Shown here: positions 19,339 to 24,587 of the stretch, in pieces
Numbering within the stretch: the first letter of the stretch is position 1
Layout: each line of letters opens with the position of its first letter
The notes under the pieces: generated by a model
Seen by the model: only the letters and a program-made list of their open reading frames with translations
Told to the model about the DNA's origin: nothing
Databases searched by the model: none
Translations under genes and position numbers: made by a program
Assembly: GCA_029775855.1 (NCBI GenBank)
Contig: JARVJZ010000001.1
Span: 248,001 to 312,000 of the forward strand
Reading direction: 5' to 3'
DNA from: Nitrososphaeria archaeon
Lineage (GTDB): Archaea; Thermoproteota; Nitrososphaeria; Nitrososphaerales; JAAOZN01
Length of the DNA stretch: 64,000 nt

Positions 19339-20163
19339 TCCAGCCTCAGCCAACCGATCTTGTGAATCAGACTTAGGAGACCAAATACGCATAGCAGCTG
19401 CGAAAGCCTGATCCTTTGGAGTAAACGATTCTATCACACACATCCCATTGTAGCCTATGCCCTTTACAGCATCAGCAACCTCCCTCCAGTTTACTGTACC
19501 TGTGCCCGGTGCACCTCGATTTGACTCTGAGGTGTGTAAGTGGTATAATTTTTTACCAGCAGATCTTATGGCTTCGCCTAGACTTCTCTCCTCTATATTC
19601 ATGTGGAACGTGTCAAGTAGTAGCCCCACGTTTTCTTCTCCTATCTTATTCACAAGGTTTAGCCCGTCTGATGCTGTGTTAATCAGAGTTATATCGTATC
19701 TGTTGAGGGGTTCAAGTGCCACTTTCACTCCTAAATCTTTAGCCTTCTTCACAACCGGCTTTAACGCTTCAGTGGCAGATGCGATAAGCTCAATCTTCTC
19801 TTCATTGGTTAAGAATCTTAGATCGCCTACAGCTGCATAAATAGGGCCTGCGACCACCTCAGCTCCAAGTTTTGAAGCGGCTTCAACAACATACTCAAGA
19901 TACCTTAAAGCGTTGACCTTTACACTTTGATCTACACTCAGAGGGTTTGTATGTGGGAAGCAACCTGCTGTTACAGCAACACTTAGATTGGTTGTAGTTA
20001 GGTGTTGCTTAACACATTCGATTGGGAAGTTGGTGTCTAAGATTGGTAGTTCAACAGCATCGAAACCCATCTTGCTTATCTTCTCTATTAGGCTTGCATT
20101 CTCTACAGATACTGCTGGTTCCCATATCCAGAAGTGTGCGCCTATCCTCATATCCAAAAGCAT
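19309..20163 (-). CDS. Sugar phosphate isomerase/epimerase (xylose isomerase-like TIM barrel)
   Basis: A 284-residue TIM-barrel protein resembling D-psicose/D-tagatose 3-epimerases. The metal ligands expected for this group are present: Glu in VALEPLNRYD, Asp in LLLDTFHMNIEE, a His in LHTSESNRGAPGTG and Glu in CVIESFTP. GAHFWIWEP and FDAVELPILDT form the first strands. It is divergent from the bd oxidase operon. The substrate sugar is unknown. Confidence 0.87.
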   Translation of the reverse strand: MLLDMRIGAHFWIWEPAVSVENASLIEKISKMGFDAVELPILDTNFPIECVKQHLTTTNLSVAVTAGCFPHTNPLSVDQSVKVNALRYLEYVVEAASKLGAEVVAGPIYAAVGDLRFLTNEEKIELIASATEALKPVVKKAKDLGVKVALEPLNRYDITLINTASDGLNLVNKIGEENVGLLLDTFHMNIEERSLGEAIRSAGKKLYHLHTSESNRGAPGTGTVNWREVADAVKGIGYNGMCVIESFTPKDQAFAAAMRIWSPKSDSQDRLAEAGLIFLRRLFA

Positions 20164-20285
20164 TTACCATATGTTCTAAATAAGCATTTTATAACTTACT
20201 AAACATATATATCGTAAGATTTATATCTGAAATCTGCCTACTTATACCCAAGCTTCCAGTATAAATATTATATTATGAAGGTGGG

Positions 20286-21782
20286 TTGGGTTTGAATGGC
20301 GTCGAGTACATAAATAGAGCTTTAAACCTTTCATCACTTGGAATATATATTCACGCAATCACGATAGCTATAGTGTTAGGCTTCTCCTTAGCACTACTCA
20401 TATTAGAGTTAATAGGTATAAGGCGAAAAGACGCCCTTCTCTTAAAAGCCGCTAAAACAATATCCTTGGTTATTCTCATCGTCTTCGTCTACGGAGCAGC
20501 CACTGGCACACTTGTCGAATTTGGGCTACTACAAGTTTGGAGTGGTGTGCTTTTGGTGGCTGGGAGCTTTGCCTTCATACCCTTCTACCTCGAGCTCATA
20601 GCATTCGTTTTAGAGGCTGCTACACTTATAGCCCTCTACTACACCTGGGGTAAGTTTCGCAACCCTTGGTCCCATTGGATGTTAACACTCACATACACCT
20701 TCGCAGCCTTCCTCTCAGGAGCTCTTATAACATCTGTTAACTCTTGGATGCAAGCACCTTGGGGTGTTGGAGATGTTGTTAAAATGATCTATCCTTGGGC
20801 ACCTACTTATGGTCCTCTGGTTGTTAATGTCGATTTCCTCATAAGTTTGAAGGATGCTTTAGTTTCAGCAAGTGGTAGTGTAGGCGGAGGAGTTGCGTTG
20901 GTAAATCCAGAGATTCTAAGCACATTATCCGCTAAATTCGGTGAGCTACTTAACGACCCTTGGATAGCTTTGAAGAGCCCCTACTCTAATCAAAGCATAC
21001 TTCACCAGCTTTTAGCATCATCTTCAGTAGGCGTATTCTGGGCTGCTTCAGGCTTCGCTCTTCTAATACTTAGAAAAAAGGGAGAGAGCGAATACTACTT
21101 CAAGGCTGTAAAGACGCTTGCTGCCATAGGTGCGGTTCTGGTCTTGGCTCAAGGAGCAACAGCCCATTGGATGGGTGCCGTTGTGTATGAATATCAACCA
21201 ACAAAATTTGCTTTAATAGCTGGCTTAGATGTCTCAAAACCAGATCCAATAGTTGGGCTTACAATGTTTGGTGACCCAAATTACATCTTTGACGGCTTTG
21301 ATAAATTAGTTGAAGCGGCTAAGAATCATCCTAACCCTAATCTTATTATAGGCGGTGTTTCTGCTGCTGAAATCGCAGTAGCTGATACTGTTGCAGCATC
21401 TAAAAACATGAATCTTGTTTACCCGATGTATACGACTAAGGTTGCTGTAGCTGGTTTAAGCCTACTTATTTCCCTTGCAATCCTTTCAATCTTCGTCTTC
21501 AGGAGATTCTGGGAGGGGAGAAGAAGTCTTCTAGTTTATCTGGCTTTGACTATGGGGTTGTTCACGCCGCTTATGTCTGGTTTAGGTTGGGCTGTAAGAG
21601 AGATCGGGAGAAAGCCTTGGACAGTATATGGACTCGTCTATCCTCATGAGATCATTACACCACTAGGAGGCTCAACATGGGTTGCTACCGTTGTCATAGG
21701 AGGCTTAGTTGTTGGCTTCATATTGATGTGCTTAACGATCTACCTAGCCTTAACTAGGAGGTTAAAGATAGGAGGTAAATAA
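20286..21782 (+). CDS. cydA: Cytochrome bd oxidase subunit I (CydA family)
   Basis: Membrane subunit of the bd-type quinol oxidase, which reduces oxygen to water. At 498 residues it has about nine hydrophobic segments. A helix-I His is at residue 23 (GIYIHAITIAIV). Two Glu of the haem d/b595 site lie in FYLELIAFVLEA. SVNSWMQAP, HQLLASSSVGVFWAASGFALL (haem b558 His) and GWAVREIGRKPWTVYG match CydA blocks; a QPTK quinol-loop motif is also present. The Met ligand of haem b558 is not obvious. The start is TTG 20286 or TTG 20292. A second CydA-like gene follows after 1 nt, as in archaeal CydA-CydA' pairs, with no CydB. Confidence 0.85.
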   Translation: MGLNGVEYINRALNLSSLGIYIHAITIAIVLGFSLALLILELIGIRRKDALLLKAAKTISLVILIVFVYGAATGTLVEFGLLQVWSGVLLVAGSFAFIPFYLELIAFVLEAATLIALYYTWGKFRNPWSHWMLTLTYTFAAFLSGALITSVNSWMQAPWGVGDVVKMIYPWAPTYGPLVVNVDFLISLKDALVSASGSVGGGVALVNPEILSTLSAKFGELLNDPWIALKSPYSNQSILHQLLASSSVGVFWAASGFALLILRKKGESEYYFKAVKTLAAIGAVLVLAQGATAHWMGAVVYEYQPTKFALIAGLDVSKPDPIVGLTMFGDPNYIFDGFDKLVEAAKNHPNPNLIIGGVSAAEIAVADTVAASKNMNLVYPMYTTKVAVAGLSLLISLAILSIFVFRRFWEGRRSLLVYLALTMGLFTPLMSGLGWAVREIGRKPWTVYGLVYPHEIITPLGGSTWVATVVIGGLVVGFILMCLTIYLALTRRLKIGGK

Positions 21783-21783
21783 G

Positions 21784-22893
21784 ATGGACCCGCTACCCGC
21801 GCTACTGGTTTTAGCTTTCGTGTTGTTGGTGCACCTAACATTTGTAAACATAAACATAGGCTTAGGCTTCCTTAGCGTTGCAGCAAGATGGAGATCTAAA
21901 AGCGACCCAAAGGCTGAAGAATTATCAAAGCACTCGGTTAAATTTGTCGCAGCGAACGAAGTGGTCTCAGGAGTCTACGGCACACTCATCACTGTAATCC
22001 TATTCGGATTCTGGACAGGTTTTGTCAACGTTGTGGTGCAGGTACTCTTCTTCGCTTTACTTATCAGCGTGATAGCTATAATCATTAGGTTGACATCCAT
22101 CGCGGCATACTGGTATACTTGGGGCAGAATCGGGGTTAATGCACACCTTATTATAGGCTTGATCATGGCTATTTCTGGTCTCTTCATACCAGCAGGCTTC
22201 AGATACATCTTCGCATTCATGAATAACCCTGCTGGACTTATGCGTATATCTCCTTTGGAGGGGGATGTGGCTGCTGCTCTCTCTAACCCCCTTTATCCGC
22301 CACTGCTACTACATACTTGGGTCGGCGCTCTGTCAATAGGCTTCTTAGCTGCTGCCACTGGATTCGCTTGGGCTTCTAAGCGCAGCGAGTATCTCAGAGG
22401 CTGGGCTGCTAAAACAGCTCTAGTCGGGGCGCTTCTAATAATTCCACAGGGAATTGTGGGCTTCTGGTATTGGTCAAGCCTCAGCAGCCACTCACCAATC
22501 TTGTTCAACGCGCTCAACATTGGGTTGATAAGCGGAGTTTCTGCGCAGACGAATGTCTCACACTCTTTTCTCGCGATGGTTTTGATCGGCCTTTACTTAC
22601 TAACAGCTGGTCTCATCTACTATGCTGAGCCAAGTAGGATACGGTTAGCCTACACACTAGCACCTTTATCCATACTATCACTATACTTCGGTGAAATAAC
22701 TCAAAACTGGGGTAGGATGCCCTATCTCATATTGCAAGGAGACACAGGTTTAGATGTGAATCTTTTCGTGAATAAGTTGGTGTATATAGATGCAGCGACT
22801 ATAATGATAGCCATAGCACCTATTGCTGTGATAACTATAGGGTTTGTTGCTCTCCTCTACCACTACCTAGTTAAAGGCTTCATGGAGAGTTAA
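21784..22893 (+). CDS. Second, divergent CydA-like subunit (CydA')
   Basis: A 369-residue membrane protein with eight or so hydrophobic segments, placed 1 nt after cydA. It keeps features of CydA: His17 in FVLLVHLTFVNINIG, a later His in LLLHTWVGALSIGFLAAATGFAWA, and an ending (FGEITQNWGRMPYLI) that mirrors the GW.REIGR.PW block of true CydA. The two-Glu motif and the quinol-loop motif are not visible, so it is probably a structural partner. This two-CydA arrangement is known from archaea and replaces CydB. Distinguishing it from a divergent CydB needs a structural comparison. Confidence 0.78.
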   Translation: MDPLPALLVLAFVLLVHLTFVNINIGLGFLSVAARWRSKSDPKAEELSKHSVKFVAANEVVSGVYGTLITVILFGFWTGFVNVVVQVLFFALLISVIAIIIRLTSIAAYWYTWGRIGVNAHLIIGLIMAISGLFIPAGFRYIFAFMNNPAGLMRISPLEGDVAAALSNPLYPPLLLHTWVGALSIGFLAAATGFAWASKRSEYLRGWAAKTALVGALLIIPQGIVGFWYWSSLSSHSPILFNALNIGLISGVSAQTNVSHSFLAMVLIGLYLLTAGLIYYAEPSRIRLAYTLAPLSILSLYFGEITQNWGRMPYLILQGDTGLDVNLFVNKLVYIDAATIMIAIAPIAVITIGFVALLYHYLVKGFMES

Positions 22894-22896
22894 AGT

Positions 22897-23658
22897 GTGT
22901 ATTTAGCTGAGAGTCTGCTACTAGGTTTCATCCAAGGCTTAACCGAGTGGCTACCTATATCGAGCTCAGGACACTTAGCAGTTGTGGAGACCATATTTGG
23001 TGTTGAGGAGCCGCTGCTCTTTAATGTTGCTTTACACACAGCTACATTGATAGTTCTAATTGTATACTTTAGAAGAGATCTTGTTCAGTTGGCTTTAGCC
23101 GCTATTTCACTCGATTTTAGTTCAAAGCAGGGGAAGCTCATACCGAGTCTAGTAGCAGGAACTATACCAACAGCTATAGTAGGTCTGATACTCTATGAGC
23201 ACTACACCACACTATTTAACTTTGAACTTTTAGGGTTTAGCTTCTCTGCATCTGGGATGCTCGTTTTAGCCTCAAAAATTAGAGAAGGATACAATCCTGT
23301 ATCAACTAAAACAGCTTTGTTGATAGGTTTAGCTCAAGCGTTATCAATAGCCCCTGGGTTTTCAAGAAGTGGGTTAACGATAAGTATAGCGCTCTTGGCT
23401 GGTGTTGAGCGTGATGAAGCCTTTAGGTTCTCTTTTCTACTATCTATACCGGCTGTGCTAGGCGCATTAACAATCACTTTAATGAAGAGCGCATTTGACT
23501 CAACTATTCTCCCCCATATTTTATTAGGCGTGGTTTCTGCTGCATTAGTTGGGTATCTATCGCTTGCCACGCTACGAAAGCTGCTGATGAGAGGCTTCTT
23601 TCACTGGCTAGGAATATACACTATAGCCCTAGGGTTGACATTACTTTTCGTCTTCTAG
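22897..23658 (+). CDS. uppP: Undecaprenyl-diphosphatase UppP/BacA family
   Basis: Integral membrane phosphatase that recycles polyprenyl diphosphate (dolichyl-type lipid in archaea). At 253 residues the length is normal. The two catalytic motifs are intact: GFIQGLTEWLPISSSGHLAV near the N-terminus and PGFSRSGLTIS in the middle. Translation starts at GTG 22897, 3 nt after the CydA' stop, so it is cotranscribed with the oxidase. It overlaps the convergent Rieske ferredoxin gene by 18 nt. Confidence 0.92.
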   Translation: MYLAESLLLGFIQGLTEWLPISSSGHLAVVETIFGVEEPLLFNVALHTATLIVLIVYFRRDLVQLALAAISLDFSSKQGKLIPSLVAGTIPTAIVGLILYEHYTTLFNFELLGFSFSASGMLVLASKIREGYNPVSTKTALLIGLAQALSIAPGFSRSGLTISIALLAGVERDEAFRFSFLLSIPAVLGALTITLMKSAFDSTILPHILLGVVSAALVGYLSLATLRKLLMRGFFHWLGIYTIALGLTLLFVF

Positions 23659-23970
23659 TTGAACAAAGATTATACCTTCTTCAACTTTAACCGGATACCT
23701 CTTTAAACCTCGTGTATCTGAGTCAACAGGCTTCGCTAACACGCTACCATCTTCGATGTTGAATTCTGCGTAATGGAAGCCGCAGCGTAAGACCTTACCT
23801 GAAAGAGAGCCGAATCTAAGAGGGTAGCCCATATGAGGGCAGCTGGCTTCAAGAGCGTAAAGCTGGTCTTGAGTGTTAATTAAGAGAATCTTGTCCCTCT
23901 CTACCTGAAACTCCTTTATTGAATTAGGTTGAATATCTTTAAACTCAGCGACCTTACACCAACGGCACAT
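23641..23970 (-). CDS. Rieske-type [2Fe-2S] ferredoxin
   Basis: A 109-residue soluble Rieske domain. The cluster motif is CPHMGYPLRF then CGFHYAEFN (CxH and CxxH), the pattern of Rieske ferredoxins of oxygenase systems and nitrite reductase NirD-like proteins. There is no signal peptide or membrane anchor, so it is cytoplasmic. It is expected to pass single electrons; its partner is unknown. It converges with uppP and overlaps it by 18 nt. Confidence 0.9.
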   Translation of the reverse strand: MCRWCKVAEFKDIQPNSIKEFQVERDKILLINTQDQLYALEASCPHMGYPLRFGSLSGKVLRCGFHYAEFNIEDGSVLAKPVDSDTRGLKRYPVKVEEGIIFVQLEDEK

Positions 23971-24002
23971 ACCAAAAAATAGAGAGGAGGGTTTAAAAAG
24001 AT

Positions 24003-24587
24003 CTACTCAATATGCCTGAATCTCTGTGTATATGGGCCTTCTCCAGGCTTTCTTCTTCTGAAGTGGCCTGATGGGCGCCCCTCTAGTATCTCTTGGAACC
24101 AAGCTTCGTGCTCGACTTCCTCGTGTAGTATTGCTAGTGATATGTCATAGGTTCGGTGATCCTTACCGTATGTCATGTTGCATATTTCAGTGTAAACTCT
24201 TACTGCGCATCTTTCTGCTTCAAGTAGAACTTTAAGTATCTCGGTTAGGTCTGAGGGGTCGCTGGGTAGGTAGGCTGCTGCGCACGCTGCATCGTCGTGC
24301 AGTTCCTTTAGATCTCGGTAGAGTTCTCCGCCTAGCTCATATATTCTGGGCACTAATGTCTCAAAGTGTAATCGATCTTCTAACCTAGCATCTTCAACTA
24401 TCTCTTTTATTCCCTCGCCTTCTAAACCTGAGCAGTGCATCCTCAATATTGTGTAATAGTAGTAGGTTGTAAACTCAGCTGCAGCAGCCCTCTTTAACTT
24501 CGTTATAAGAAGGTTTACATCTACACCAGCCTTCTCCACCATCTCTCTACCGACATTATTAGTAGTCTGAAATTTAGATATCTTCAT
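24003..24587 (-). CDS. Dps-like ferritin (DPSL/thioferritin type)
   Basis: A 194-residue four-helix-bundle protein of the ferritin-like superfamily. Candidate di-iron ligands are Glu38 ([11 protein letters not shown]), Glu70 and His74 ([10 protein letters not shown]), Glu125, and the acidic stretch HEEVEHE near residue 155-161. Cys102 and Cys127 lie 25 residues apart, the same spacing as the Cys pair of the Sulfolobus DPSL protein, which couples peroxide reduction to iron oxidation. The protein probably removes peroxide and stores iron in the cytoplasm. Confidence 0.8.

Follow-up and report, generated by a model that had tools for sequence, protein, structure and literature searches.

A CydAA' cytochrome bd with lysine at the second haem b558 ligand position in a Nitrososphaeria archaeon

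A stretch of 64,000 nucleotides (nt) from a Nitrososphaeria archaeon (assembly GCA_029775855.1, contig JARVJZ010000001.1; the whole stretch is called the window below) encodes an archaeal CydAA' oxygen reductase, an already known arrangement of two CydA-family subunits. From sequence comparison we infer that this pair is a CydAA' cytochrome bd of the Lys type, in which Lys385 of CydA is the likely ligand of haem b558, and that it probably scavenges O2. We give this reading, with the O2 reduction, electron donor, ligation and role that it implies, a probability of about 0.8. The genes and residues concerned are as follows.

20286..21782, + strand: cydA, catalytic subunit of an archaeal CydAA' bd-type oxygen reductase, Lys type, 498 amino acids, TTG start (PF01654, 193.5 bits)
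21003..21005, + strand: codon of CydA His240, equivalent to E. coli His186, a haem b558 ligand (alignment with E. coli CydA)
21438..21440, + strand: CydA Lys385 (AAG), at E. coli Met393, the second b558 ligand position (alignments)
21612..21614, + strand: CydA Lys443 (AAG) in GRKPW, at E. coli Gln449, always found together with Lys385 (alignment, codon)
21784..22893, + strand: cydA', second CydA-family subunit in the place of CydB, 369 amino acids (PF01654, 73.7 bits; model matches CydA chains)
22312..22314, + strand: CydA' His177, equivalent to E. coli His186 (phmmer to 5doq, hhalign)
22576..22578, + strand: CydA' Met265, equivalent to E. coli Met393 (phmmer to 5doq and 9r2g, as weak second stretches; hhalign)
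22897..23658, + strand: uppP/bacA, undecaprenyl-diphosphatase family, 253 amino acids, GTG start (PF02673, 206.7 bits)

The second subunit is a paralogue of CydA

The three genes lie on the + strand, with 1 nt between cydA and cydA' and 3 nt between cydA' and uppP. A preliminary description of this DNA had named a bd oxidase of two adjacent CydA-like subunits; the coordinates and order that it gave were right, and PF01654, the CydA family (cut-off 26.2 bits), is the sole family matched by both proteins. It had also seen no CydB and had counted the second subunit as CydA-like, and the latter holds. Neither subunit, nor any other of the scanned proteins, matched CydB at E ≤ 0.001 (the genome was not searched for PF02322), and comparison of the CydA' profile with the CydA profile by hhalign gave 99.8% with an E value of 1.4e-29. 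The best matches of the AlphaFold model of CydA' (ma0b39a5936f4, pLDDT 92.2) were CydA chains of solved bd oxidases, at Z scores of about 38 to 42 when the best chain per entry is taken: 7ose_A at Z 41.6 (root-mean-square deviation 2.4, 366 residues aligned) and 5doq_A at Z 40.0 (2.3, 362 aligned). The model of CydA (mc71cacec2add, pLDDT 88.6) matched 7ose_A at Z 37.6 (2.7, 431 aligned). Sequence, profile-profile comparison and predicted structure concur in identifying CydA' as a paralogue of CydA.

cydA and cydA' are the only PF01654 genes in this archaeal genome (1.51 Mb, six contigs, 98.4% complete), and in a genus-mate (G002) both frames are open and about 80% identical to those of the window. 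Across 74 CydA' rows, His17, His121 and Glu304 are invariant, and Arg140 is found in 73 (one row has X). That CydA' is a CydB, or that the pair is a decayed relic, is very improbable in spite of its low score and lost active-site Glu residues, and we rejected the reading as CydB: CydA chains match best, the CydB family is unmatched in the scanned proteins, both frames are open in the genus-mate and residues are invariant over all rows.

The CydA' profile matched 74 of the 398 genomes of the phylum, seven of them through CydA-only matches (frames of about 480 to 505 amino acids, E about 1e-10). For the counts, 70 places in the phylum and those of G002, G005 and G010 yielded the 74 CydA' rows, including the window, and 72 of these have a readable CydA. 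Duplicates (L012-L016, of L047-L051), a cydA fragment of G002 (L118), a 100-base stretch (L121) and two loci with an unreadable CydA partner (L103 and L110) had been dropped beforehand; further CydA' places, for example in G419, G431, G434, G170 and G133, were left out as fragments or weak. The partial CydA proteins of L117 and L066 were kept in the ligand counts, that of L117 being left out of the CydA tree, and the structure-model alignments A3 and A4 contained subsets of 56 and 52 rows. At loci with a readable pair, cydA precedes cydA' on the same strand, and the two mostly overlap or are a few nt apart; L110, with a 1066-nt gap and a broken cydA, is the exception.

CydA keeps the di-haem ligands, and CydA' keeps the equivalents of the b558 ligands

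Aligned with E. coli CydA, the CydA of the window keeps the E. coli-numbered residues H19 (H23 here), E99 (E103), E107 (E110) and E445 (E439) of the di-haem site, together with H186 (H240) and K252 (K307). At the quinol site, Q304 and K307 are kept, and Ala312 stands at the position of E. coli E257, which is Ala or Ser in all eight members of the clade, the window included. E257 is listed in a passage of PMC13189123 among the residues formerly indicated for the quinol site. The first subunit had been said to keep its haem and quinol blocks; this is true of the di-haem ligands, H186 and K252, but the quinol block is incomplete.

CydA' lacks the two Glu residues (S95 and R102 by alignment), the Glu of haem b595 (N308), the QPTK motif, the Q-loop and the di-haem ligands. 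It does have H17, and its H177 and M265 correspond to the two b558 ligands. The view that only traces of the fold remain in this subunit was correct as to the kept H17 and the lost Glu residues and QPTK, but it overlooked the ligand equivalents and the invariant residues. Because the equivalents of both b558 ligands are kept, CydA' is, judged by its residues, more than a relic.

Lysine replaces methionine at the second b558 ligand position of CydA

The ligands of b558 in E. coli are given in a section of PMC6853902 as His186 and Met393. This canonical pair is not found in the window, where H240 is kept and Lys385 stands in place of Met; the usual Met ligand had been noted as not obvious, and its position in fact holds a conserved Lys. 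Over 72 archaeal CydA proteins of CydAA' pairs, the column holds Lys in 38 (Lys type), Met in 34 (Met type) and no other residue; both types keep H186 without exception. At the variable residue of the GRxP motif (E. coli Q449), Lys is found in 38/38 proteins of the Lys type and in 0/34 of the Met type, where the residue is Q, Y, L, V, N or H. Among all well-filled columns scanned, these two positions alone were fully disjoint between the types and single-letter in the Lys type; column 453 was also disjoint, but of several letters. In addition, the position of D339 is Asp in 37 of the 38 Lys types. Since the ligand position varies among CydAA' pairs, Lys385 marks, on the evidence of the alignment, a variant within CydAA' and does not exclude the enzyme from it.

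A Met ligand displaced to a nearby position was considered and rejected. The register is anchored by Y382 three residues earlier, which is conserved in at least 90% of alignment A3, and by the rows with YYxM versus YYxK; phmmer alignments to 5doq and 9r2g likewise pair K385 with their Met.

The archaeal CydAA' cytochrome bd was reportedly described by Murali, Gennis and Hemp in the ISME Journal in 2021, Caldivirga maquilingensis being the source of the enzyme said to have been tested. The pair in the window resembles that system in its two adjacent CydA paralogues with no CydB beside them and in its di-haem ligands; within it, the window represents the Lys type, has GRKPW and lacks an E257 equivalent, whereas locus L106, for example, is of the Met type with GRVPF. 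A passage of PMC12542729 cites Murali et al. 2021 for this arrangement. Paired subunit I paralogues are also reported in part of a 2011 genome paper (PMC3189178) for Thermoproteus tenax, an archaeon described as anaerobic (TTX_0142/TTX_0143), with the statement that many anaerobic Archaea carry the two-subunit-I combination. In canonical CydAB the second subunit is CydB (PF02322), whereas that of the window belongs to the CydA family. E. coli cytochrome bd-I (CydAB with CydX and CydH) shares the CydA fold and di-haem ligands with the window, but its partner subunit is CydB, and the places of Lys385 and Lys443 are taken in it by Met393 and Gln449.

The Lys/Met switch recurred and covaries with CydA'

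Three Lys/Met changes are needed in the CydA tree, from which both switch columns were left out, and the same number in the CydA' tree; the two trees were built quickly and have long branches. A single origin of the Lys type was rejected, as the approximately unbiased (AU) test gave p 2.9e-4 for one Lys clade in the CydA tree and 2.2e-61 in the CydA' tree. The Lys type is not one clade, and at least three switches are needed.

The partner subunit differs between the types. At the Met393-equivalent position of CydA' (Met265 in the window, anchored by the nearby Phe262), the 38 Lys-type pairs have Lys (30) or Met (8); the 34 Met-type pairs have A, D, N, I, H, S, G or F, and neither Lys nor Met in any (0/34). 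Of the 38 Lys-type pairs, 23 have His at the His186 equivalent of CydA', combined with Lys at the other site in 15 and with Met in 8; His is combined with Met or Lys in none of the 34 Met-type CydA' proteins. The window belongs to a group of eight with His/Lys in CydA and His/Met in CydA', made up of the window, G002 and six relatives that include three Geocrenenecus, one Terraquivivens and KUA_Bin06.

Several genomes (G119, G069, G153, G140, G171, G177 and others) hold two CydAA' pairs of distinct clades. G119 has one pair of the Lys type (L066) and one of the Met type (L070), and some of the two-pair genomes mix types in this way.

In the literature searched, from which the primary CydAA' paper was absent, we found no mention of a Lys ligand of b558 in bd oxidases, and we do not claim that it is unreported; nor did that search turn up a description of repeated switching between Met and Lys at this ligand position, accompanied by matching changes elsewhere in CydA and in CydA'. 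How electrons enter a bd oxidase is set by the b558 ligand pair. With its covarying partners, the recurrent natural exchange of Met for Lys offers a ready test of what tunes this entry and of the donor used by the archaeal enzymes.

Proposed mechanism and the role of Lys385

At the outer face, CydA would oxidise a quinol or a similar donor; the electrons would pass via haem b558 to the di-haem site (H23, E103, E110, E439), where O2 would be reduced to water. CydA' would stand in for CydB as the pseudo-symmetric partner. Lys385 is the most likely sixth ligand of b558, giving a His/Lys haem. Such a haem is expected to have a lower potential than a His/Met haem. Ligation by Lys385, paired with Lys443 in GRKPW, would lower the potential of b558 and suit a low-potential donor.

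A less probable explanation, but one to be taken seriously, is that Lys385 is no ligand and forms, with Lys443 and Asp339, a charged cluster at the quinol pocket or the haem propionates, b558 being five-coordinate or otherwise bound. It would account for the constant co-occurrence of Lys443 and for Asp339 in nearly all Lys types, and a passage of PMC13189123 places E. coli Arg391 and Val394 in the lining of the aurachin pocket beside b558. Against this, Lys385 sits precisely at the ligand position, all 72 rows have Met or Lys there, residues that can both serve as ligands, and H186 does not vary in either type; this favours ligation by Lys385.

Some observations weigh against the main reading. 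In 15 Lys-type pairs, CydA' has Lys at position 265 without a His partner, so that Lys at this position may serve a role other than ligation, as a charged cluster would have it. A sign test on three independent pairs gave p 0.25, three being too few to reach significance. As to the donor, MqnA was not found, only a MenA-like prenyltransferase below the cut-off was seen, and the window's CydA has Ala at the E257 position.

The ligand equivalents in CydA' raise the question of an extra low-spin haem at its b558-equivalent site (His177/Met265 here; His/Lys in 15 other pairs), which would give the enzyme more haems than CydAB. We consider this unlikely. The combination of His with Met or Lys in CydA' does go with the Lys type (23/38 versus 0/34), but the CydA' of 15 Lys-type pairs has Lys at both positions, the subunit lacks the Q-loop and di-haem ligands, and in E. 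coli all three haems reside in CydA, according to part of PMC13189123.

A probable role in O2 scavenging

The enzyme would scavenge O2 rather than power aerobic growth. It is most likely an O2-scavenging quinol oxidase of an otherwise anaerobic archaeon, because no other oxygen reductase was found in the genome, which encodes CODH/ACS, and because genes for Dps, OsmC and a Rieske protein lie close by. No match to PF00115, the haem-copper oxidase family, was found in the window's genome, which encodes CODH/ACS alpha (TIGR00314, 1075 bits). All three neighbours, OsmC, Rieske and Dps, are found at a distance of up to about 1.5 kb from either end of the cydA-cydA'-uppP run; two of them are listed here.

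23641..23970, - strand: Rieske-type ferredoxin, convergent with uppP and conserved beside uppP in the genus-mate G002
24003..24587, - strand: archaeal Dps (DNA protection protein; NF040955, 308.2 bits, cut-off 250)

The Rieske and Dps cluster (23641-24587), convergent with uppP, is retained in the genus-mate (L117). At six Caldarchaeales-type loci (L047-L052), a putative peroxiredoxin gene, read by eye, lies directly upstream of cydA, and most of these loci have an Lrp/AsnC-like regulator opposite it. The neighbours, CODH/ACS and the peroxiredoxin of relatives fit O2 removal in an anaerobe, as a passage of PMC12542729 proposes for CydAA in the O2 protection of Tardisphaeraceae. Part of PMC10833072 uses a missing cydB to call some Conexivisphaeraceae or Nitrososphaeria probable anaerobes; such calls may overlook CydAA' pairs.

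Near CODH/ACS alpha, genes for NuoB, a fused NuoC-D and a NuoI-like protein were seen (G000:C1:66679-69566; L134:12680-15567), and no further Nuo genes were recognised by eye in the 36 kb read. The products may form a complex linked to CO or ferredoxin.

Haem supply

No match to ALAD (PF00490) turned up in the genus, which is represented by three genomes (G000, G001 and G002; one of them 72% complete, the others 98 and 99%), and ALAD is present in 21 of the 28 other genomes of the order, including G005 and G010. The genus thus probably imports haem and is a probable haem auxotroph that carries a haem oxidase. The genome also encodes a haem O synthase (G000:C1:74486-75412; L135:487-1413; TIGR01473, 279.3 bits, cut-off 210.3) in the absence of a haem-copper oxidase match. 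Among the 398 phylum genomes, those without PF00115, which may also cover NO reductases, had a CtaB match (E<1e-40) in 31 of 32 cases with CydAA' versus 16 of 210 without. For this count the seven CydA-only matches were dropped and fragments kept as positives, and 5 of the 32 rest on places without a locus read. As the count is confounded by kinship, the association of CtaB with CydAA' is a lead only.

Taken together, one could imagine CydAA' oxidases that switch repeatedly between His/Met and His/Lys b558, with the GRxPW Lys and a matching CydA' change; in the window's clade, CydA' would bear an extra His/Met haem (more than three haems in all), and the enzyme, in a genus that makes no haem itself, would depend on scavenged haem that is perhaps turned into haem O. 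As a whole this picture is speculative and rather improbable.

uppP is most likely only a neighbour

The preliminary description had remarked on an unusual pairing of respiration and lipid-carrier recycling. The arrangement, with uppP 3 nt after cydA', is real, but a functional link is unsupported, because uppP adjoins cydA' in 2 of the 74 loci, both of one genus (the window and G002, L117); we rejected the coupling as a functional claim. That oxidase and UppP work together is highly improbable, even with the short gap on the same strand conserved in the genus-mate and with uppP the only copy found in the genome. Within the order, UppP was matched in 19 of 61 genomes and the CydA family in 5 of 61, side by side only in the two genus members; there are genomes with UppP and no PF01654 match, and G005 and G010 have CydAA' without UppP. 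The lipid-recycling gene is most likely a neighbour and no part of the enzyme.

A shared cydA-cydA'-uppP transcript is plausible, because 20150-23700 contains no T-run of five or more, but plausible co-transcription says little on function. The protein shares PF02673 with UppP/BacA, scoring above the cut-off of that family, and reaches 171.5 bits against TIGR00753, under its cut-off of 217.5.

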